The notes under the pieces were generated by a model, which was not told where the DNA came from, made no database searches, and was given only the letters and a program-made list of their open reading frames with translations. The position numbers and the translations under genes are program-made. 22,265 bases of DNA, from IMG/VR virus record IMGVR_UViG_3300006947_000094, positions 1 through 22,265 of that record, one strand, 5' to 3'. Origin of the DNA: a virus. Below, piece after piece: positions 4,285 to 22,265 of the stretch. Within the stretch, counting starts at the first letter, position 1. Every line of letters begins with the position of its first letter.

Positions 4285-4292
4285 GATAAATA
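4285..4292 (+). promoter_or_regulatory. T4-type late promoter (GATAAATA)
   Basis: GATAAATA ends 19 nt before ATG 4312. With T4 spacing the start is 4298, the last base of the GTGTGT arm of the hairpin at 4293-4311. This promoter's own RNA would therefore lack the hairpin. Confidence 0.7.
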
Positions 4293-4311
4293 GTGTGTAT
4301 AGGAGACACAC
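4293..4311 (+). promoter_or_regulatory. hairpin enclosing the ribosome binding site of the 134-aa gene
   Basis: GTGTGT (4293-4298) pairs perfectly with ACACAC (4306-4311). The loop ATAGGAG holds the Shine-Dalgarno sequence, and the stem ends directly against the ATG. It can form only in RNA that started upstream. This resembles the arrangement known for T4 genes e, soc and 49. Confidence 0.5.
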
Positions 4312-4716
4312 ATGACTTTGAATAGATCAGGCGCAATGAACAGCCAAGAAGTTGTTACAGGAAACATAGAATTCTACACACTATTTACATCACTAGATAT
4401 TACACATACTGGTGATTTTACAGATGAAACGCAGAAGGATTTTGAAAGTGTTGTTCAGGTTATTGGATTAAGAGCTATGCCAATTATCATGAATAGACCA
4501 GTTGAGTTAAATGGTGTTGGTGCTAACGTATTAGAAGGTTACGGCGCTCCAAGTATAACAGGCGCAGGCTGGATTTTTAAATTTGCTTTTGAACGTGAAA
4601 GTGTGCATAGCATTACTACATTACAAGACGAACTTAACGGTATTGTATTAAATGGTGGCACAATAGATACAAAAACTACTGTGAACATGGAGTTCACTAA
4701 ACAGGATTTATTATAA
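4312..4716 (+). CDS. unknown conserved-type late protein, 134 aa
   Basis: ATG 4312 is chosen because AGGAG lies 6 nt upstream, inside the leader hairpin. The product begins MTLNRSGAMNSQEVVTGNIE and has alternating hydrophobic segments typical of a mixed alpha/beta domain, with a stretch around VEGYGAP-like turns near residues 78-85 and a Thr/Asn-rich C-terminus. No motif, signal peptide or membrane helix is visible. It lies downstream of a very strong terminator, so its main expression should come from its own late promoter. The next gene starts 2 nt after its stop, so the two are probably co-translated. Likely structural; the family was not recognised. Confidence 0.8.
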   Translation: MTLNRSGAMNSQEVVTGNIEFYTLFTSLDITHTGDFTDETQKDFESVVQVIGLRAMPIIMNRPVELNGVGANVLEGYGAPSITGAGWIFKFAFERESVHSITTLQDELNGIVLNGGTIDTKTTVNMEFTKQDLL

Positions 4717-5257: not shown

Positions 5258-8200
5258 ATGAAGTCTAAAGATATACGCACAATAAAATCGTTAATCTCTG
5301 AGTACGGAATGAATAGCGGAGTTAGTACTCCTAGTTCTCAACAACAAACTGGGTCAACTGCTAAAGCAACAGCAGCCGCTAAGCCGGCGAAGTCAGGTGT
5401 AAATAAACCACAGGTTAGTCCTAGCAGTCAGCAAAATAAAACTAACACTGATGGACCAGCACCGGTTGAACCAATTATATCAAAAGCAAAAGAGTTAGCA
5501 CAAGACTTTGAATACCTAGACGACAAAGGCGATACTGTTAAAGTAATGAGCCCTGTAAACAACGGTCTAAACAAAAATGCAGTTGTTGTACAAAATCAAA
5601 AGAACAAAGAATTTTATACATTAGATCCTGACGATGATATTACAACGTCAGCTGGCGAACCAGTTACAGAAAAAGCAAAACTACCTAACAATGTTAAACG
5701 TAAGCATAACTTATCTAACAAGATTAAAAGATTACTCAGAGCACAGAAGCATATACAACAAGGTGATCCAATATTTGAACTAAACTTTAATAAGCCAGAC
5801 TTAGCAAAGCAAGCATTAAGTGCTCCGGTTAAGTGTGGATTTGAAGCAGAAACAGTTTGGAATGATTTATCCGGCTCCGATGGAGATGAAGATTGGTTAG
5901 ATGGCAACAACTGGTACGATATTAGCTCAAAGCTAGAAGATCAAGAAGGGGATCGCGGTGTAGAGTCAGTAGAAGAAGGATTCAGAGAATGGATTCAGGA
6001 AACTGATTATTTCTACGATGCAGAAAGAGAAATAATAGATGATCTAGTACGCGACCGTAAAGATGATGAAGACTATACTGACCGTTATGTAGATGATAAA
6101 GTATCTATGGACGATGTTGACGAATATAAAGAAATGATTATGTCAAATTTAGCCAAAGGCAGCTCAGACACTGACGAAGCCGCTGCCGAAGAGACCGAAG
6201 AACGCAAATCATGGGAAGACGATGCCTGGGCTAGAGAATATGTTGAAATAAATGAAGATGACGCATTTGAAGAATGGCTAATAGATGATATTAGAGATAA
6301 CGGCGAAGCATTTGATGATGCATGGAGTAACGTACTAGACAACCATGACCCAGAGACCTGGTGTGATGACGAGTACAGAGGGAATTGGAATGCCCTACTA
6401 GGTGATCTCGATATATTTTTGTACAATGAGCAAGGCGGTGGACAAGAAGAAGTTGCTCAATATTTAACCCAATGGGCAGATAAGAATAGCTTTAGATCAG
6501 AAGTTGAAGCAGGAGAATATCACAGCGGCACAGCAGTTGATAATGCCTACTGGCGTGTAGAAGATGATAGTTCAATTGACGGCTCTGGATTAGGTTCTGA
6601 ACTTATTAGTCCTGTATACGATACACCGCAAGACATGCTTAAAGAAATAAAAAGTTTGTTTGATTGGATGAGCGAAGAACACGCCGTAGAAACAAATAGC
6701 TCAACTGGTTTACACATTACAATGAGCATGGCTGACAGTGGCTCAGGCGAAACAAACAAATTAAAAATGGCTTTACTGCTAGGTGATCAATACTTGTTAA
6801 AACAGTTTAACAGAGCAGATAATAGTTATACAGCAAGCCAACAGGCACGAATTAAAAAGTATGTAGAGGATTTAACTAAAGATCAAAAGGCTGAAAAGAG
6901 TCTTGCAGGTCTAGAAGAGATACTAAGCAGTGGTATTAGTTCTGGTAAGTTTAGTAGTATCAACTTCAAGGAACAGAAAAACAGCGAAGGAAATAAACTA
7001 ATAGAATTTCGTGTTGCAGGCGGATCAGATTATACTAAAGATGTAGACTTAATTGTTAAAACGGTTATTCGTTATGCGGCAGTAATGCAAGCAGGACATG
7101 ACAAAGATGCATACAGAGCAGATTATATTAAAGCATTATTCCGTATGCTAAATTCAGTAGACGAAATTGACCCAGACACTGTAAAGAATGCATCGTCATA
7201 TATTGACCCTTCTGTTGCTGATGCTAAAGTAATAGATGCATTTAAAGATTTAGCAAGTAAACGATCCTACAAAGATGCACTAGAATACTTAGGTATGGCG
7301 TATACTGCATTAGGACGTTACACGCAGATGGCATCAGCAGACATGCAAGGTGACTTATTTCAAGAAAATGAAGCAGAAGATGAGACACCTGAAGACGAGT
7401 CATTGCAACAAAGTCGTCAACGTCAGCAAGCATATTTAGATCATGCTAAAAAATACTTTAGTAAAGCATTTGCAATGATTATTAGTGACTTAGCAAATGG
7501 AAACAATCGCACTGAGCCTAAAGTAAAACAAATTGCAGGTTTTAGAAAAGGATTTAAAGATTTTGGTATTCCGGGTGCAGAACTTTGGGATATGCTGAAA
7601 AAAGAAAAATTGTTTACTAACTCACCGACAACCGTACATCAAAAAGAAATAGACTGGGCTGAAGGATTTAATAAGCTATTAAACGTAAACGTAGCTAAAG
7701 CAAGAGTTGCAGACTTTAACGTTAATTTCGATGCTAATAACGATGCACTGTTTATGACTGGTACATACCGAAATTACATACAGAAAGACGCTGGGTTAGA
7801 TTTATTCAACGATGACAAAGCCACAGGCGAAGACCCTGGTGATATACTAAACCCAGAAATGTTTACAGTTGTACCTGACAAAGAGTTAACCGCAGTAGAA
7901 AGAACTGTATACGATTACGACGAAGCCGTAATAGATTACAAAAATGATGTAGAAAGGGCAGACAACATGCAACGTGAGTTAGATACAAAGGATTCGGATA
8001 GTTATAATGATCCATCTACTCTTAGTAATAAAATGGCACTTCGAATGGCACAAGAAGATTATCCTAACTATAAAAAAATGTGGGACGGTGGATTTGGCTT
8101 GTTTATGGCTGATCCAAACATTAATGCTGTAAAACTAGCAAGATGGATTAACAACTTAGAAACAAGTAATAATGCAAAACAAGATGTTCTAAATGCACTA

Positions 8201-10129
8201 GTATACAACAAGGAAAACAATGGCAATCCTGTACAGTGGGATGAAATATCATCAATGGTACAAGCATACAAAGCAGGCGGAGTTGATACTACAGACTTAA
8301 TAGACGCTGATCACCCTGCACATGCACAAGGAAGTAGAACTAACGAAAATAGTGTCGAAGATACAGAGCGAGCCATTAGTAAAATGCGTGGCAGTGCAGA
8401 CATGAATATGCGGTTATTAAATGGAAAGAAACAAGAATTAGATGCGTTTGAAAAGAAGTATGGCTTTGTTCCTAGTAGTGTTAGATATGGATCAACCGGA
8501 TACTCTGTGGGCGATATGGCTAGAGTAAATACAGAAATGCAACGTCACATTGCTAACAAATATAACGTTAGTTTTAGTAAGATAAAAGAGAGTAAAAACA
8601 TGTTTGAGAATTTTAATAAACTACCATTGCGTAAGCAGTTAGAAATAGTTAGTAAAGTTGATGCTAATAAGATAAACGAAGCACTAATAGTATCTAAGAA
8701 AAAGTTAAATGAAACTATTGAAGCAGAACAAGATATGACTGCATTATTAACTACTTACGGTACGCCTAGTAAAAAGAAAAAGAAAGGCAAAGGTTTTGAA
8801 CATCCTAACAAGTCTGGCTCAGGCAGAGCAGCAAAATATACAGAAGGTGCTGTACCAGACAACTCCCCTGTAAAGAAAATACGTCAGTTATTAAATGTTC
8901 CTTTACTTGCTAGTGATTTAAAATCTCAAATGGAAGCATACTTTGTGGTTCCTGATCCAAGCATGATTAGAGCATTCAGAGAAGCAGCCAGCGGTGGCGG
9001 ACCAGACACAGATTTGCGTACTATATTCAAAGGCTTTGTACAAAATAAAGTACATCCAGAAATTAAAAAGAAAGCAGGATTAACCGAAAGTAAATCTGAT
9101 CTAATTAAAAAATTAGAAGAACTACCAGACGATGACAAAACTAATAAATTAATTAACTACATTGAACAACTGTTAAACGATATGGGTGTTGGTGGCAAAA
9201 TACAAAGTTTAAGTAACATGTTAGGCGAAGTGCCGGATGAGGATGTTAAGAAAGCAATTAAACAAATTGCAAAGATTGTAGCAAGTATAGAAATGACACC
9301 AGCAGAAAGAGCAAAACTTTTCATGGACTGGAAACAAGATAAATTAATTCGAGTTGATACATTGTTGTCTACATCAACTGATACTATGGCTGAAATATTT
9401 GTTGGCTACGGCATGGAAGGAAACGAACATATAACAGAATTAGTTAATGACTTAAATGAAGTTGTACAGTACGGTATCGGGCCAGGTGAGTTTGCACTGT
9501 CAGTATTGTCACAGAGAATTGGCGGCATGGGAGCATCATCGGGTGCTGACGATGGCAAAGGTGACTTAATGATTGACGGTCAACCAATTGAATTGAAGAC
9601 AACAAGAAAAAATTCTGCTAGATTTAATGACAGGCAAGTTACTGTGTCAGATTCATACAAGACTATGGTAACAGCATTCTTTACAAAGTATGCTGAGAAA
9701 TTCAAAGAACTAGAAGCACAGGGTGCAGTGTTAAGAGTTAAATCAGGTATGCAACAAAATCATGTTGCGGCTTTCTTAAAGTTAGTACCTGAGGCAGAAA
9801 AAGAAGTAGCAGATATTATTTCAAATATCTTTACAGAACTACCTAACGCAGGTACTGAGATAGCACAATACTTAGCACAAAATAACATTAACGGAGCAAT
9901 GCAGACCATAGCCCAATCTAATGTTAATAACTACCTTGCCGCAAAAAGAGGCGGAGGCAATCTTAAAGGAATACTTTTCTTAGATCTTAAAAAGCAGACG
10001 TTTACCTTTATACAAGACGTCAAGGATTTAGCCGGTTCCGGCTTAAGACTACATGCAAAGACAAACTATCTTGTGACAACAAATGAAAATCCATTTGCAA
10101 ATACATCAATAGTAGACAGTAGTAACTAA
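5258..10129 (+). CDS. giant late protein: amidoligase-like domain plus PD-(D/E)XK-like nuclease motif
   Basis: A 1623-aa protein. Residues 1-15 (MKSKDIRTIKSLISE) resemble a capsid targeting leader ending in I-S-E. Residues ~16-75 are a Ser/Gln/Lys/Pro-rich linker. Residues ~190-620 resemble the phage amidoligase family (ATP-dependent carboxylate-amine ligase of glutamine-synthetase type): CGFEAE (193-198), SELISP (447-452), TGLHITM with H486, and IEFRVAGG near 580. A long Asp/Glu-rich insert (~200-400) splits the first two motifs. Residues ~620-1150 are helical with no motif I know. Towards the C-terminus, GDLMIDGQPIELKTTRK gives D1436, E1445 and K1447, the D-x8-E-x-K pattern of PD-(D/E)XK nucleases. 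A KKKKKGKG linker precedes the C-terminal part. It is probably a virion protein; both activities are inferred from motifs. Confidence 0.85.
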   Translation: MKSKDIRTIKSLISEYGMNSGVSTPSSQQQTGSTAKATAAAKPAKSGVNKPQVSPSSQQNKTNTDGPAPVEPIISKAKELAQDFEYLDDKGDTVKVMSPVNNGLNKNAVVVQNQKNKEFYTLDPDDDITTSAGEPVTEKAKLPNNVKRKHNLSNKIKRLLRAQKHIQQGDPIFELNFNKPDLAKQALSAPVKCGFEAETVWNDLSGSDGDEDWLDGNNWYDISSKLEDQEGDRGVESVEEGFREWIQETDYFYDAEREIIDDLVRDRKDDEDYTDRYVDDKVSMDDVDEYKEMIMSNLAKGSSDTDEAAAEETEERKSWEDDAWAREYVEINEDDAFEEWLIDDIRDNGEAFDDAWSNVLDNHDPETWCDDEYRGNWNALLGDLDIFLYNEQGGGQEEVAQYLTQWADKNSFRSEVEAGEYHSGTAVDNAYWRVEDDSSIDGSGLGSELISPVYDTPQDMLKEIKSLFDWMSEEHAVETNSSTGLHITMSMADSGSGETNKLKMALLLGDQYLLKQFNRADNSYTASQQARIKKYVEDLTKDQKAEKSLAGLEEILSSGISSGKFSSINFKEQKNSEGNKLIEFRVAGGSDYTKDVDLIVKTVIRYAAVMQAGHDKDAYRADYIKALFRMLNSVDEIDPDTVKNASSYIDPSVADAKVIDAFKDLASKRSYKDALEYLGMAYTALGRYTQMASADMQGDLFQENEAEDETPEDESLQQSRQRQQAYLDHAKKYFSKAFAMIISDLANGNNRTEPKVKQIAGFRKGFKDFGIPGAELWDMLKKEKLFTNSPTTVHQKEIDWAEGFNKLLNVNVAKARVADFNVNFDANNDALFMTGTYRNYIQKDAGLDLFNDDKATGEDPGDILNPEMFTVVPDKELTAVERTVYDYDEAVIDYKNDVERADNMQRELDTKDSDSYNDPSTLSNKMALRMAQEDYPNYKKMWDGGFGLFMADPNINAVKLARWINNLETSNNAKQDVLNALVYNKENNGNPVQWDEISSMVQAYKAGGVDTTDLIDADHPAHAQGSRTNENSVEDTERAISKMRGSADMNMRLLNGKKQELDAFEKKYGFVPSSVRYGSTGYSVGDMARVNTEMQRHIANKYNVSFSKIKESKNMFENFNKLPLRKQLEIVSKVDANKINEALIVSKKKLNETIEAEQDMTALLTTYGTPSKKKKKGKGFEHPNKSGSGRAAKYTEGAVPDNSPVKKIRQLLNVPLLASDLKSQMEAYFVVPDPSMIRAFREAASGGGPDTDLRTIFKGFVQNKVHPEIKKKAGLTESKSDLIKKLEELPDDDKTNKLINYIEQLLNDMGVGGKIQSLSNMLGEVPDEDVKKAIKQIAKIVASIEMTPAERAKLFMDWKQDKLIRVDTLLSTSTDTMAEIFVGYGMEGNEHITELVNDLNEVVQYGIGPGEFALSVLSQRIGGMGASSGADDGKGDLMIDGQPIELKTTRKNSARFNDRQVTVSDSYKTMVTAFFTKYAEKFKELEAQGAVLRVKSGMQQNHVAAFLKLVPEAEKEVADIISNIFTELPNAGTEIAQYLAQNNINGAMQTIAQSNVNNYLAAKRGGGNLKGILFLDLKKQTFTFIQDVKDLAGSGLRLHAKTNYLVTTNENPFANTSIVDSSN

Positions 10130-10149: not shown

Positions 10150-10527
10150 ATGAAGATCAATGACATTATACAAGAAACAACTAGTGCAGGCGGTATTGCT
10201 ACCGTTGCAGCTCCATTAGGCGGTATGCAAAAAAGACCTAATGCAAGTGTGTTTGCTAATGCAACTCCCAAAAAGAAAAAGAAAAAAGCAACTGAGAACA
10301 CTAAAGACGAAGTACTTCCGAAATGTGAACTTTGTAAAGGCGAAGGCTGTGATGCTTGTGGTGGTACTGGTGAAGAAGATGGCTACATTCACAGAGAAGG
10401 TAAGAGCCCACATAAAAAAGGTACTAAGAAATATAACAAGCACATGGCAGCAATGCATGCCGAGGCTACTCTACAAACAGGTGGATACGGCAAGTCTAAA
10501 AAGTCAAGACATCAGCAAAACATTTAA
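10150..10527 (+). CDS. zinc-knuckle protein with capsid-targeting-like N-terminus
   Basis: A 125-aa protein. Residues 1-9, MKINDIIQE, match the T4 internal-protein leader pattern (acidic, hydrophobic, I-x-E). Then comes TSAGGIATVAAPLGG, a lysine run (41-46), and a DnaJ-type zinc motif with C59, C62, C67 and C70 spaced CxxCxGxGCxxCxGTG. The C-terminus is basic with several His and Lys residues. One pair of CxxC units is enough for a single zinc site, whereas DnaJ has four such units. A nucleic-acid- or protein-binding cargo protein is likely. It follows the giant gene by 20 bp and carries a late promoter immediately before its ATG. Confidence 0.8.
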   Translation: MKINDIIQETTSAGGIATVAAPLGGMQKRPNASVFANATPKKKKKKATENTKDEVLPKCELCKGEGCDACGGTGEEDGYIHREGKSPHKKGTKKYNKHMAAMHAEATLQTGGYGKSKKSRHQQNI

Positions 10528-11693: not shown

Positions 11694-11701
11694 CATAAAT
11701 A
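11694..11701 (+). promoter_or_regulatory. T4-type late promoter, leaderless arrangement (CATAAATA)
   Basis: CATAAATA is followed by CCTGT and ATG 11707: the third case in this window of exactly 5 nt between the motif and a start codon, again without a Shine-Dalgarno sequence. Confidence 0.5.
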
Positions 11702-11706
11702 CCTGT

Positions 11707-12096
11707 ATGAACAAACAAAAACTTACAAAACAGTTAGATACTATAGCAAAGAACGTTGCTAAGAAAGGCGTTTATGTTGTAACTAAAAAAGATGATCACT
11801 TTGTAATACAAGAACATATATCAAAAGCTATTGTGGCGTCAGAATTACCTATGAAATGTGTTGCCTCTTACTTATGTAGGTTGCGTAACAAAGGTTTAGC
11901 TGTGAGTTTAGGAAATAAAATTAAATTAGAAGGCTTAATAACTCAATATTTTAGATGTAGAAATGACATTATGTTCTATAGGCACACTATCAAAACCACA
12001 AAAGACTTTACTAAGCTACAAATAACAGAAGCAAGACTGCTTGATACCATATGTAAGTTTAATTATACTAAAGAAGAACTAAAACGGTTTAGCTAA
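11707..12096 (+). CDS. unknown protein, 129 aa, possible winged-helix type
   Basis: The start is ATG 11707; an upstream in-frame TTG at 11647 lies inside the previous gene. The product begins MNKQKLTKQLDTIAKNVAKK. The segment ASELPMKCVASYLCRLRNKG followed by short strands (LAVSLGNKIKLEG) resembles the helix-helix-wing pattern of small DNA-binding winged-helix domains. That likeness is by eye and weak. The C-terminal half is helical and Lys/Thr-rich. There are four Cys residues, not spaced like a zinc site. No partner gene identifies its role. Confidence 0.75.
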   Translation: MNKQKLTKQLDTIAKNVAKKGVYVVTKKDDHFVIQEHISKAIVASELPMKCVASYLCRLRNKGLAVSLGNKIKLEGLITQYFRCRNDIMFYRHTIKTTKDFTKLQITEARLLDTICKFNYTKEELKRFS

Positions 12097-14113: not shown

Positions 14114-14132
14114 TAACGTAAGTTATTGAAAC

Positions 14133-14157
14133 AAAAGGCATTTTTATATGCCTTTTT
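14133..14157 (+). terminator. intrinsic terminator closing the late operon
   Basis: AAAAGGCAT (14133-14141) pairs with ATGCCTTTT (14148-14156) around a 6-nt loop, with a run of six T ending the 3' arm. It separates the late genes from the sigma70 promoter just downstream. Confidence 0.85.
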
Positions 14158-14159
14158 TA

Positions 14160-14188
14160 TTGACAACAATATCACTATGTGTTATACT
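14160..14188 (+). promoter_or_regulatory. sigma70-type promoter for the exonuclease gene
   Basis: TTGACA (14160-14165), a 17-bp spacer and TATACT (14183-14188), with TG one base before the -10 box (extended -10). Transcription should start near 14195, about 20 nt before the ATG. This is a host-polymerase early promoter inside a late gene region. Confidence 0.85.
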
Positions 14189-14215: not shown

Positions 14216-14890
14216 ATGCTAGTAGAAAAGTTCACTTACCCAACTCTTAAAAGAGTAACAGCAAAAAACGGACAACGCCAGTACACCGGCGAAGACAATC
14301 AACCAGTACCTAGTGTAACTACGGTGCTTTCGGATACCGGTGATAAGACAGCTCTTATTAATTGGCGTAAACGTGTAGGCGATGCTGAAGCTACTCGCAT
14401 CAGTCAAGAAGCCGCTGGGCTAGGCACTAAGGTGCATAATGCATTAGAAAAGTATGTACTAGTAGAAGATTACGAAATCAAAGGTAATAATGTTGTAAGC
14501 GTAATGGCTAGAGACATGCTAAATGTAATGATTGCAGAAGGGTTAAGCCAAGTAGATGAGATATGGGGTGTTGAAGTAGCTCTGTTAGCAAAAGGCTTAT
14601 ACGCAGGTACAAGCGATGCTGTGGGTATGTTTAACGGTGTTGAAAGTATTATTGACTTCAAGACTTCTAAAAAGATCAAGAAACGTGAGTGGATTGAAGA
14701 TTACTTTATGCAAGGATGTGCATACGCACTTGCACATAATGAAATGTTTGGTACAAACATCAAGCAGGTTGCCATCCTAATGGTAGACCGTGAAGCTAAC
14801 TATAAAGACTTTGTTATAGAAGGCGACGAATTTGAAGAATACTGCACTAAATGGGCAAGAAGACTAGCGGACTATTATAATAAAGTTTAG
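14216..14890 (+). CDS. PD-(D/E)XK exonuclease (RecB/Cas4-like fold)
   Basis: A 224-aa protein. After PSVTTVLSDTGDK (32-44) the nuclease motifs appear in order: GTKVHNALEKY with H74; a glutamate at E120; SDAVG with D134; IDFKTSKK with D147 and K149; and QGCAYALA with Q166 and Y170. This H/D/D-x-K/Q-x3-Y order matches RecB-type and Cas4-like exonucleases, metal-dependent enzymes that process DNA ends. Phages use such enzymes in recombination, replication or host DNA breakdown. Start ATG 14216 has AAAGG at 14203-14207. It is expressed from its own sigma70 promoter, so probably early, unlike its structural neighbours. There is no terminator after it, so its transcript should run into the tail gene. 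Confidence 0.9.
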   Translation: MLVEKFTYPTLKRVTAKNGQRQYTGEDNQPVPSVTTVLSDTGDKTALINWRKRVGDAEATRISQEAAGLGTKVHNALEKYVLVEDYEIKGNNVVSVMARDMLNVMIAEGLSQVDEIWGVEVALLAKGLYAGTSDAVGMFNGVESIIDFKTSKKIKKREWIEDYFMQGCAYALAHNEMFGTNIKQVAILMVDREANYKDFVIEGDEFEEYCTKWARRLADYYNKV

Positions 14891-14902
14891 TTAGTTCAAA
14901 GT

Positions 14903-14910
14903 GATAAATA
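14903..14910 (+). promoter_or_regulatory. T4-type late promoter (GATAAATA)
   Basis: GATAAATA lies 27 nt before GTG 14938. With T4 spacing the start is 14916, inside the 5' arm of the hairpin at 14911-14938, so late RNA would lack that hairpin. Confidence 0.7.
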
Positions 14911-14938
14911 CTGTTAAGTAATAAGAGAGGCTTAACAG
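14911..14938 (+). promoter_or_regulatory. hairpin enclosing the ribosome binding site of the tail gene
   Basis: CTGTTAAG (14911-14918) pairs perfectly over 8 bp with CTTAACAG (14931-14938). The 12-nt loop contains the binding site AGAGAGG, and the last paired base is the G of the GTG start. It can form only in RNA made from upstream, such as the exonuclease transcript. Confidence 0.6.
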
Positions 14939-17448
14939 TGGCAGAAGAAACAACAAAAATCGTACGAATGCAACAACGCAGAGGTCAGAAACAAGACCTC
15001 CCTAAGCCGTTGCGACCAGGTGAAATAGGGTTTGCTACAGATAGCAGACAAATTTATATTGGTGCAGACACAACCGATGCTGTATCTGACATTTACAATA
15101 AGACAGGCAACTTTGAAAAGACTGCAAGTGCCCAGAGTACTACAGCAAATTTAGCCAATGTGCAAATGATTAAATTCATTGTGCCTCACAAGGTATACGA
15201 CAAAGGTGAGTTCGATGGTGTTACAGATAGTATAAGTTGGACACCAGCAACTAATGTTGCAACATCCTCTGAAGCAAATGAGTACGGAAGGCTTGGTAGC
15301 GTATTTACAAACATTGCAAGTACAGCAGCTTTCCAAAACAACATAACAGGTGATGCTTTTGTACCTACAGATTTAACAGTTCTCAAAAACGGTACAGCAC
15401 TTAGTCCATCTAATGTAGCCACAATAGCATCCGGTAATGATTACTTTTTCTCACAGACAGGTACCCTTGCAGCAGCAGCTAATACCCACACGCTCTCACT
15501 TAGAACATCGCCGAGTGGTGCTGATGAAATTTCAGTATCATACTATGCTAACACAGCAATTATTGAAGCTCTAGGAAATACCACAATCGGTAAAACAGGC
15601 AAGCCTGGTTTTTACTCAGACAAAGGAATAACTACTTATAGGCAACTATCTAATGACAATGTTAGAGTTGCAGGCGGAATTGGCATTGGTTATATTGGTA
15701 TGCAGTTTAAGCATATTCAAGTTGCAACCGATGTAAAGCATACACCAAACACTGCTTCGTATGCAGAAACATTGGGCACATTATACTTAACAAAAACTGA
15801 TACAGCCAGAGCTGGCGTTGTATCAACCGCAGGCGCAAGTTCTCTTGCGTTAGCAGGAAATTTATTAACAGGCAGTTATTCAATTGACAGTGACGGAGAT
15901 TACGATCCAGCTGGTTACTACAATCATGTATATGTTAAAGGTGGCAACGACTGGTTGGCAACTGGTAAAGTATTAGCAGTAACAGCATATTCATCGGCCG
16001 GCGCAACAATAACTGCAACATTACCAAATAATGCTTCAAGTATAACAAGACAAATATCAACGGTTGCTAATGACAGTGGTAACATTAAAATCTCAGTTGA
16101 AAATGTTGAAAACACAGAAATTGATGATGTTATTTATTTCTTATATGACCATGCAACAGATTCATCACAACTATCCGGTACCCAAGGAAATGTTACTGCT
16201 ATTGATTCAACAAATAATACAATTACAGTTGCAAAAGATTATGCAGACTATAGCTCGAGTGCTGACTTAAACCTATTAACATTTGTAACATACAAAGATG
16301 GCGTAGCAGGTAATGTAGTTATACAAAGCCCAAGGCACGGTAACCTAACAGGCAATAGTGTTGTACTCGCCTCCGGCGCTGGTGGATTATCGGGTAATCA
16401 TGTTGTTAATGCCGTTACAGGTAATACATTTATAACAGCTACTACCGATAGTACAAGTGCTAACTCAACCTCACTAACATCTAAACCAATTGTGTCAAGT
16501 GCAACAATCGAAGCAACACCAGTTGCATCATATGATCTATCAGCAGCTAGTACATCTGTAGCAGTGCAAACAACAGTTAACGGTGCTAATTTATGGCCTA
16601 AGATTTCTACTATTCCTGGTGAGACTAATAAAATGTATATTACTCACTCTGAAGCAGTACAAAAAACACCATTTAAATTTGCATTACATAATGATACAGC
16701 GGACACAGTAACAGCATTAGGTCTCACAGCAGACGAATACGATCGTACAGATTCAACTGTTAAAGCAAAATTAGAAGATTGGCTATTTGCAACAAAGGCG
16801 TACGATGATGTAAACATATTCTCAACTATATATGTAAACACAGAATTTAACAGTGCTGAAGCAGCAAGTCCGGGTAACGGACGTTTCCCTGATAAATGGG
16901 ATACCAAAATCAACGGCGCAGTTGGTGAGATGAATTTCGAAGAACGAACCCAAGCAAGAGATTTTACTAGAATATTAAACAATCTATACTTTGAATCAGT
17001 TAACACTGACATCAGAGGATTGATGAATATTAAAACAAACATTGAGTTCCTCACATCAGAAGCACTAGCGGCAGGTACAGCAATAACAGCATATACTGCT
17101 CCAGAGCAATTAACCATACTAACAGGCAATACAACAGTGTCAGAATTAGATATACCGTTTGGTGGTGCTAATCCTGTCAACACGCAATTTGTAGAATACA
17201 GTATGCAAGCCACAACAGGTTTAGGTAGTTATAGGCGTGTTGGTACGTTAACATACTCAGGTGATAGTACCATTGACGATGTTATATTTGCAGACAATTA
17301 CACAGATGCACGTTCAGGTACGTTAACAGGTAATGTAAATTTTGAAGCAAACTTCACTAGTGAAAACGGAGCTATAACAGTAAGTAATACACTAACTCCT
17401 GCCACATCGGTAACAGTGAAATATATCGTAAGAAGATGGGCTGACTAA
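14938..17448 (+). CDS. tail/fibre protein with Mtd_N-type N-terminal domain
   Basis: An 836-aa protein with a GTG start, fixed by AGAGAGG 7 nt upstream. The first ~50 residues (VRMQQRRGQKQDLP, then RPGEIGFATDSRQIYIG) match the Mtd_N-like module at the N-terminus of many phage fibre and receptor-binding proteins, where it attaches to the baseplate or tail. The bulk is Thr/Ser/Asn/Gly-rich with many short beta segments (SVVLASGAGGLSGNHVV), as in trimeric fibres. Near residues 675-710, FTRILNNLYFESVNTDIRG resembles a conserved segment that I recall from cyanophage tail proteins. Likely a baseplate-attached fibre or adhesin. It has a late promoter and an RBS hairpin that should block translation of early read-through RNA. 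Confidence 0.85.
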   Translation: MAEETTKIVRMQQRRGQKQDLPKPLRPGEIGFATDSRQIYIGADTTDAVSDIYNKTGNFEKTASAQSTTANLANVQMIKFIVPHKVYDKGEFDGVTDSISWTPATNVATSSEANEYGRLGSVFTNIASTAAFQNNITGDAFVPTDLTVLKNGTALSPSNVATIASGNDYFFSQTGTLAAAANTHTLSLRTSPSGADEISVSYYANTAIIEALGNTTIGKTGKPGFYSDKGITTYRQLSNDNVRVAGGIGIGYIGMQFKHIQVATDVKHTPNTASYAETLGTLYLTKTDTARAGVVSTAGASSLALAGNLLTGSYSIDSDGDYDPAGYYNHVYVKGGNDWLATGKVLAVTAYSSAGATITATLPNNASSITRQISTVANDSGNIKISVENVENTEIDDVIYFLYDHATDSSQLSGTQGNVTAIDSTNNTITVAKDYADYSSSADLNLLTFVTYKDGVAGNVVIQSPRHGNLTGNSVVLASGAGGLSGNHVVNAVTGNTFITATTDSTSANSTSLTSKPIVSSATIEATPVASYDLSAASTSVAVQTTVNGANLWPKISTIPGETNKMYITHSEAVQKTPFKFALHNDTADTVTALGLTADEYDRTDSTVKAKLEDWLFATKAYDDVNIFSTIYVNTEFNSAEAASPGNGRFPDKWDTKINGAVGEMNFEERTQARDFTRILNNLYFESVNTDIRGLMNIKTNIEFLTSEALAAGTAITAYTAPEQLTILTGNTTVSELDIPFGGANPVNTQFVEYSMQATTGLGSYRRVGTLTYSGDSTIDDVIFADNYTDARSGTLTGNVNFEANFTSENGAITVSNTLTPATSVTVKYIVRRWAD

Positions 17449-21908: not shown

Positions 21909-22084
21909 TAGCTCTTTTGATAGCAGACGCAATTAAAGCAGTAATAGGCATAGGTAAAAAGTCCGAAGGTAAGTTTGAAATAAAGCCACTTGCTATAGTT
22001 TGGTTTGCAATATTAGTTGCATTTTTCTTCTTAGGTACTATTAGTGGACTACTTCTATTAACTAGCCTAATTATAAACGGATAA
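21905..22084 (+). CDS. small membrane protein, 59 aa, TTG start
   Basis: The open frame runs from TTG 21905, overlapping the upstream TGA (21906-21908), to TAA 22082-22084; the previous in-frame stop is at 21893, so no ATG start is available. A TTG at 21917 is an alternative. It begins with a short hydrophobic stretch (IALLIADAIKAVIGIG), then a charged loop (KKSEGKFEIK), then a long membrane helix (IVWFAILVAFFFLGTISG). The clean open frame, hydrophobic pattern and start-stop overlap support a real gene translated by coupling. Its end overlaps the late promoter of the PAAR gene. Confidence 0.5.
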   Translation: MIALLIADAIKAVIGIGKKSEGKFEIKPLAIVWFAILVAFFFLGTISGLLLLTSLIING

Positions 22085-22087
22085 ATA
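22080..22087 (+). promoter_or_regulatory. T4-type late promoter, leaderless arrangement (GATAAATA)
   Basis: GATAAATA is followed by ATACT and ATG 22093: the fourth case of exactly 5 nt between motif and start codon. No Shine-Dalgarno sequence fits between them. Confidence 0.55.
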
Positions 22088-22092
22088 ATACT

Positions 22093-22265
22093 ATGGCAGA
22101 CATAGCAAGAGTAAAAACAGATACAGCAAAAGGTATAATACTAGGACCCGGCGCAAGCACAGTATTTGCTGATGGTAAAAAAGTTTCGTTAATAGGAGAT
22201 AAGGTTGCTGCACACGGTAAATCACCTCATACTGCTCCTACATTAGTTTCAGCTGGTGCTAGTAC
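22093..22265 (+). CDS. PAAR-motif spike-tip protein, 3' truncated
   Basis: The frame is open to the end of the window. It starts MADIARVKTDTAKGIILGPG, continues with a FADGKKVSLIGDKVAAHGKS segment, then PHTAPTLVSAGAST. The order of a short Gly-rich turn, GDxVxxHG, a downstream PH and a G-A/S-S/T turn matches PAAR proteins. These cap the membrane-piercing spike of contractile tails (T4 gp5.4) and sharpen it with a metal held by His/Cys; H at AAHG and H at SPH are the visible candidates. Late promoter directly before the ATG. The rest, including any C-terminal extension, is outside the window. Confidence 0.85.
   Translation, partial: MADIARVKTDTAKGIILGPGASTVFADGKKVSLIGDKVAAHGKSPHTAPTLVSAGAS

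Follow-up and report, generated by a model that had tools for sequence, protein, structure and literature searches.

What could keep a tail gene silent on RNA that enters it from the gene directly upstream? The question is raised by an exonuclease gene and a tail gene lying 47 bases apart in the window, the whole 22,265-nucleotide stretch of viral DNA analyzed here. The gap between the two genes contains a T4-type late promoter element (GATAAATA), an inverted repeat, and a Shine-Dalgarno (SD) sequence. The features of the locus are as follows:

14122..14167, + strand: terminator-like inverted repeat followed by T's (arms 14122-14141/14148-14167, 75%)
14160..14188, + strand: sigma70-like promoter, TTGACA-17-TATACT with TG before the second hexamer (11 of 12)
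14216..14890, + strand: exonuclease gene, 224 aa (phrog_298 match, E 9.9e-56)
14903..14910, + strand: predicted T4-type late promoter element GATAAATA, at the same position in relatives' leaders
14910..14918, + strand: hairpin 5' arm ACTGTTAAG, from an inverted-repeat search
14916, + strand: predicted late transcription start (motif start + 13, from the initiator and the leaderless ATG peak)
14919..14930, + strand: hairpin loop, 12 nt, with the SD sequence AGAGAGG at 14924-14930
14931..14939, + strand: hairpin 3' arm CTTAACAGT, taking in the first two bases of the GTG start
14938..17448, + strand: tail/virion structural gene, 836 aa, GTG start, Mtd_N-like N-terminus

The genome carrying the hairpin is that of a marine T4-like phage, a relative of GAP32-type jumbo phages. 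The tail gene product matched phrog_15647 (E 2.1e-4) and scored 23.0 bits against PF18454, under the cutoff of 26.3; its homologue in PA5oct has a structural annotation from mass spectrometry. Elsewhere in the window, a 1623-aa open reading frame (5258-10129) matched the Amidoligase_2 domain (PF12224, 25.7 bits, cutoff 22).

Hairpin and predicted late start

The first-pass annotation had described a perfect 8-bp stem at the ribosome binding site of the tail gene. The perfection of the stem held, but its length did not: the inverted repeat (14910-14918/14931-14939) has arms of 9 nt that are 100% complementary and 12 nt apart, and RNA folding gave 11 pairs (14909-14919 with 14930-14940), of which the outermost and innermost are U-G. 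AGAGAGG was found inside the loop as described, and the GTG that had been placed at the foot of the stem occupies 14938-14940, its G and T paired within the 3' arm. Folding of 14890-14960 gave -13.3 kcal/mol (z -3.26; 1 of 200 dinucleotide shuffles equally good), and the leader folded alone gave a z of -4.1 (1 of 300 shuffles equally good). The predicted cost of opening the region from the SD to the start was 9.7 kcal/mol in read-through RNA versus 2.3 kcal/mol in late RNA. The SD and start are therefore sequestered in silico in a helix of the longer transcripts, as in the T4 e, soc, 49, and I-TevI type.

The 5' arm of the hairpin begins inside GATAAATA, which lies immediately 5' of the stem, where a late promoter had been claimed. 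The number of late motifs in the window was rejected as promoter evidence because it showed no excess (8 ATAAATA sites versus 10.2 expected). The predicted activity of GATAAATA as a late promoter is instead based on position and comparison. Across the window plus five related contigs (82-99 kb), 26 of 111 GATAAATA sites had, at a distance of exactly 13 nt counted from the start of the motif, an ATG with an open frame of at least 50 codons, as did 23 of 105 other NATAAATA sites. No such ATG was found at 9-12 nt and few at 14-21 nt, and three permuted motifs, used as a control for this spacing, gave no peak at 13 nt. At 59 leadered (SD-bearing) late sites, T was present at +12 in 71% and A at +13 in 78%. 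Together, the TA initiator and the leaderless ATG peak predict transcription to start at motif start + 13, here 14916, the same position that the first-pass annotation had proposed. Because this position is within the 5' arm, late RNA would be unable to form the full stem; from the predicted +1, the promoter directly upstream would yield transcripts without the 5' strand. PMC2988020 describes T4 late promoters as an 8-bp box located roughly one helical turn before the transcription start. A gp55-type sigma factor (phrog_234, E 7e-24) is encoded by a related contig of 339,794 bases, the only one of 10 contigs searched, mostly fragments, in which it was found.

Judged from sequence, a large number of late genes in these phages appear to be leaderless. 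In the window, 22080-22095 and 11694-11709 each contain a late motif whose start is followed at exactly 13 nt by an ATG, with no SD, and the genes behind the variants GGTAAATA, with ATGs at 10150 and 11462, likewise appear to be leaderless. In five further contigs, the leaderless pattern had 40 matches, compared with a single match for the reversed pattern. In one group of relatives, such a start is also found at the tail gene, where GATAAATAGTTGTATGG, with no SD, replaces the hairpin (L048:4721-4734, with the same leader in L046, L049-L052, L054, L055, and L071). Seven loci of this group lie directly behind the exonuclease, with the ATG at motif +13. A leaderless start may follow the same logic by another route, as read-through RNA would offer ribosomes no SD at this gene and only RNA from the late promoter would have the start at its 5' end. 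We tentatively suggest, as the less probable reading of these patterns, that an SD-hiding hairpin and a leaderless start are two interchangeable devices that restrict late genes to RNA from their own promoters, and that the tail gene has switched between them.

Small stems were also seen at other genes. At 4285-4314 of the window, a GTGTGT/ACACAC stem surrounds ATAGGAG before a 134-aa gene at 4312; it is identical in one related contig (G001) and weaker in two others (G002 and G003), and 16 of 300 shuffles folded equally well. Hairpins covering the SD and start lie behind GATAAATA at G002:12485 (-) and G003:82335 (+), with differing sequences, before a gene starting MYEYR-K-LK-VDGDTVDVD. Several relatives also carry a small stem in the leader of the MFLKEF/MFIRDF gene (window 12111; L059:1959, L086:1928, and others); it lies between the late motif and the SD and leaves the SD uncovered.

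Conservation and compensation in relatives

Searches by DNA similarity in a phage collection matched only cyanophage exonuclease fragments, so relatives were taken from protein searches. The loci came from tail-protein and exonuclease searches and comprised 11 loci, the best 80 of 275 exonuclease relatives, and the best 80 of 190 tail relatives. As some contigs had been fetched twice, all counts refer to unique leaders; one locus (L011) was dropped because its N-terminus was missing. These best-match loci yielded 54 unique tail leaders including that of the window, of which 52 bore an SD and 2 were leaderless, the latter being excluded from the hairpin statistics. Among the SD-bearing leaders, 40 were directly behind the exonuclease, 11 followed an insert of about 460-1080 bases, and 1 was cut off upstream.

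The arms were compared in 36 unique arm pairs (324 cells), with leaders lacking a hairpin included. Pairing was found in 75.6% of the cells versus 63.6% in shuffles, and in 25-57% when the register was slid. When arms were permuted among leaders, the mean was 205 pairs and the maximum over 20,000 permutations was 228, against 245 of 324 observed. Double changes were seen in 46 cells versus 19.8 +/- 3.6 in shuffles, none of 500 shuffles reaching 46, and seven of the nine stem pairs were altered on both sides. The double changes include A-U to U-A, G-C to A-U, and wholly new stems (CACGGA/TCCGTG); compensated arms are exemplified by GTTAAG/CTTAAC versus GTTATG/CATAAC and by ACTACTAT/ATAGTAGT. 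As the sequences are related, these figures are not clean probabilities, and the double changes would be hard to explain without selection for pairing. Loops ranged from 3 to 14 nt, and 45 of 49 stems reached the start region. In the covariation check that the first-pass annotation had set as its refutation test, the arms of the structure were thus found to be conserved and compensated.

The hairpin was then compared with the leaders of other late genes. A lax criterion (one hairpin of at least 6 pairs enclosing the SD) was abandoned because it did not discriminate, passing 49 of 52 leaders including most with an insert of about 1 kb, and a shuffle test was used instead. Folding was better than 95% of shuffles in 33 of the 40 exonuclease-adjacent leaders (median z -3.5), with 7 failing, but in only 5 of 53 other late leaders (median z 0.0), among which one gene may recur from several contigs (P = 1e-11, Mann-Whitney test, kinship ignored). 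The median difference in opening energy between read-through and late RNA was 5.2 kcal/mol for the 40 adjacent leaders and 1.4 kcal/mol for 60 other late leaders. Three of the adjacent leaders have an exonuclease stop that overlaps the late motif and lies 5 nt ahead of the arm; a ribosome terminating at this point might disrupt their stems.

Leaders behind an insert of about 1 kb (n = 9) had a median opening-energy difference of 2.6 kcal/mol, and only 1 of 9 had a significant hairpin in the shuffle test; the shorter-insert leaders L003 and L148 kept theirs. In the insert locus that was studied closely (L025:4672-5688), a 338-aa gene, labeled dehydrogenase-like from reading of its sequence, lies between the exonuclease and tail genes. 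As this gene overlaps the exonuclease stop and no + strand terminator was found at the locus, read-through is still expected there. Hairpin loss in this group was accordingly rejected as a natural read-through experiment; it only shows that with such an insert the hairpin is dispensable or read-through is weaker. In L003 and L004, an insert of about 490 bases upstream of the tail gene is followed by a repeat of the exonuclease end before an intact late promoter and hairpin.

In cultured jumbo phages, too, the exonuclease gene and the tail-gene N-terminus are adjacent or separated by a single gene, and pairing around or over the SD was predicted in 13 of 15 cultured records. GAP32, CBB, XbC2, Kaldavass, SNUABM_47, and BF have a common ACTAAATA...AGGAG...TTTAGT. 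Another pair of stems is found in slurp01, IA-38, and SD-1, a third version in Munch and fENko, a 9-bp TTGCATAAA/TTTATGCAA stem overlapping its CATAAATA in SCTP-2, and yet another stem in Vibrio 2.275.O. The leaders of PA5oct and Phosso, which have the same tail-gene N-terminus, showed no hairpin. Among nine cultured leaders in the shuffle test, four were below 5% (GAP32, slurp01, Munch, and SCTP-2) and three were at 5-8%; those four are predicted to share a like arrangement with different sequences. As a late element of GAP32, CTAAATA is suggestive only (3 of 8 forward copies in upstream stretches). PMC5259590 reports that structural genes of CBB are preceded by an ATAAATA late motif and that this phage has a gp55-like sigma factor.

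Proposed translational lock and its alternatives

We propose, with a probability of about 0.8, that the hairpin is a cis-acting translational lock that silences the tail gene on read-through RNA until its own late promoter fires. Polymerase from the sigma70-like promoter of the exonuclease would run on into the tail gene because no terminator lies between the two; as had been claimed, the terminator scan found no terminator-like site between the exonuclease stop (14890) and the tail start. Read-through RNA, having both arms, would fold and hide the SD and GTG start from ribosomes. When the late promoter fires, RNA starting at about 14916, inside the 5' arm, would retain at most the 4 innermost pairs, and the open start site would allow the tail protein to be made. 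This silencing had been suggested from the window alone, and the compensated arms, the predicted +1 within the arm, and the opening energies all support it in silico.

Whether the silenced RNA is early is less secure than the rest of this proposal. The sigma70 promoter that had been ascribed to the exonuclease was recovered as the 11-of-12 site at 14160-14188, and the terminator-like repeat at 14122-14167, which the terminator scan missed, divides the upstream gene from the exonuclease. Sites of at least 10 of 12 were found upstream of the exonuclease in 20 of 51 unique regions from relatives, compared with 150 of 2,000 random windows, so early read-through may not be general. In relatives without such a promoter, long late transcripts may run into the exonuclease. 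It is conceivable, though the less likely case, that the hairpin provides general insulation rather than early/late timing, blocking translation of whatever RNA comes in from upstream, chiefly long late transcripts, and leaving the dose of tail protein to the local late promoter alone. This would agree with the 31 of 51 unique regions of hairpin relatives scoring below 10 of 12, and with the exonuclease lying close behind an upstream gene where no sigma70 promoter is recognizable. However, the promoter and terminator-like repeat before the exonuclease in the window favor early read-through, and other relatives may have early promoters that were not recognized.

The inverted repeat could also be a palindromic DNA operator, at which a repressor controls the late promoter and the RNA hairpin is incidental. 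The repeat does overlap the late promoter, as in the T4 I-TevI operator described in PMC2988022, but the arm spacing varies with the loops and the arm sequences change freely while complementarity is kept, unlike a site for one protein. In addition, the SD lies between the arms, and nearly all stems touch the start region; G-U cells by themselves are not decisive. We consider an operator improbable. Bacterial hairpins at RNA ends often serve in processing or stability, and an RNase III or RNase E site or a 5' protective element could have been expected on these general grounds. The predicted late RNA lacks the 5' arm, however, so that the stem could not protect it, the SD and start codon lie within the stem-loop in most leaders, and Rfam 15 gave no match at the gathering score anywhere in the window, which makes this role slightly more improbable still. 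Chance overlap between two conserved elements, the tail of the promoter (ATACT) and the context of the start (AGTG/AGTATG), would account for the two nearly invariant outer pairs but hardly for the seven inner pairs altered on both sides, with shuffles and slid registers far lower, and is very improbable.

The translational lock proposed here is of a known kind. PMC3014915 documents a read-through hairpin lock for T4 e, soc, 49, and I-TevI, the first three of which the first-pass annotation had also named, and the mechanism is described as established for e (PMC3014915) and I-TevI (PMC2988022). As in T4 e and soc, the SD and start lie in a helix of the longer RNA and a nearby upstream late promoter gives RNA without the 5' strand (PMC3014915); unlike e, the gene here is a tail/virion gene behind an exonuclease, and its late start is a prediction. 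As in T4 gene 49, whose expected hairpin was recovered by the same folding procedure, the stem extends to the start codon and its 5' arm overlaps an AATAAATA late element, but no sequence relation was seen to that gene, which encodes a recombination endonuclease. I-TevI, I-TevII, I-TevIII, segB, and Aeh1 mobE are likewise late genes within early or middle transcripts whose ribosome binding site is hidden unless transcription starts late (PMC2988022); they are mobile homing endonuclease genes, whereas the gene here is a conserved virion gene. The new elements are the gene, the lineage of phages, and how widely the compensated structure is conserved. A literature search, covering most papers at listing level and subscription papers thinly, turned up no description of either the hairpin or leaderless late genes for these phages.

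According to PMC3014915 and PMC2988022, the T4 read-through hairpin has so far been limited to a few cases in T4-related phages and homing endonucleases, the structure at lysozyme gene e being shown only in T4-related phages (PMC3014915). The same architecture, with rewritten arms, precedes a virion gene across uncultured marine phages, and a like form is predicted in cultured jumbo phages of Enterobacterales, Xanthomonas, and Salicola, thereby indicating that the arrangement is a rule conserved for this one gene pair and not an isolated curiosity. The relatives offer many natural variants for testing, and the architecture predicts the position of the late start. The leaderless class may represent a second way to tie translation to late initiation. 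If the two devices are indeed interchangeable, the position of the start codon would, as a general rule, set the timing of much of the late genome.
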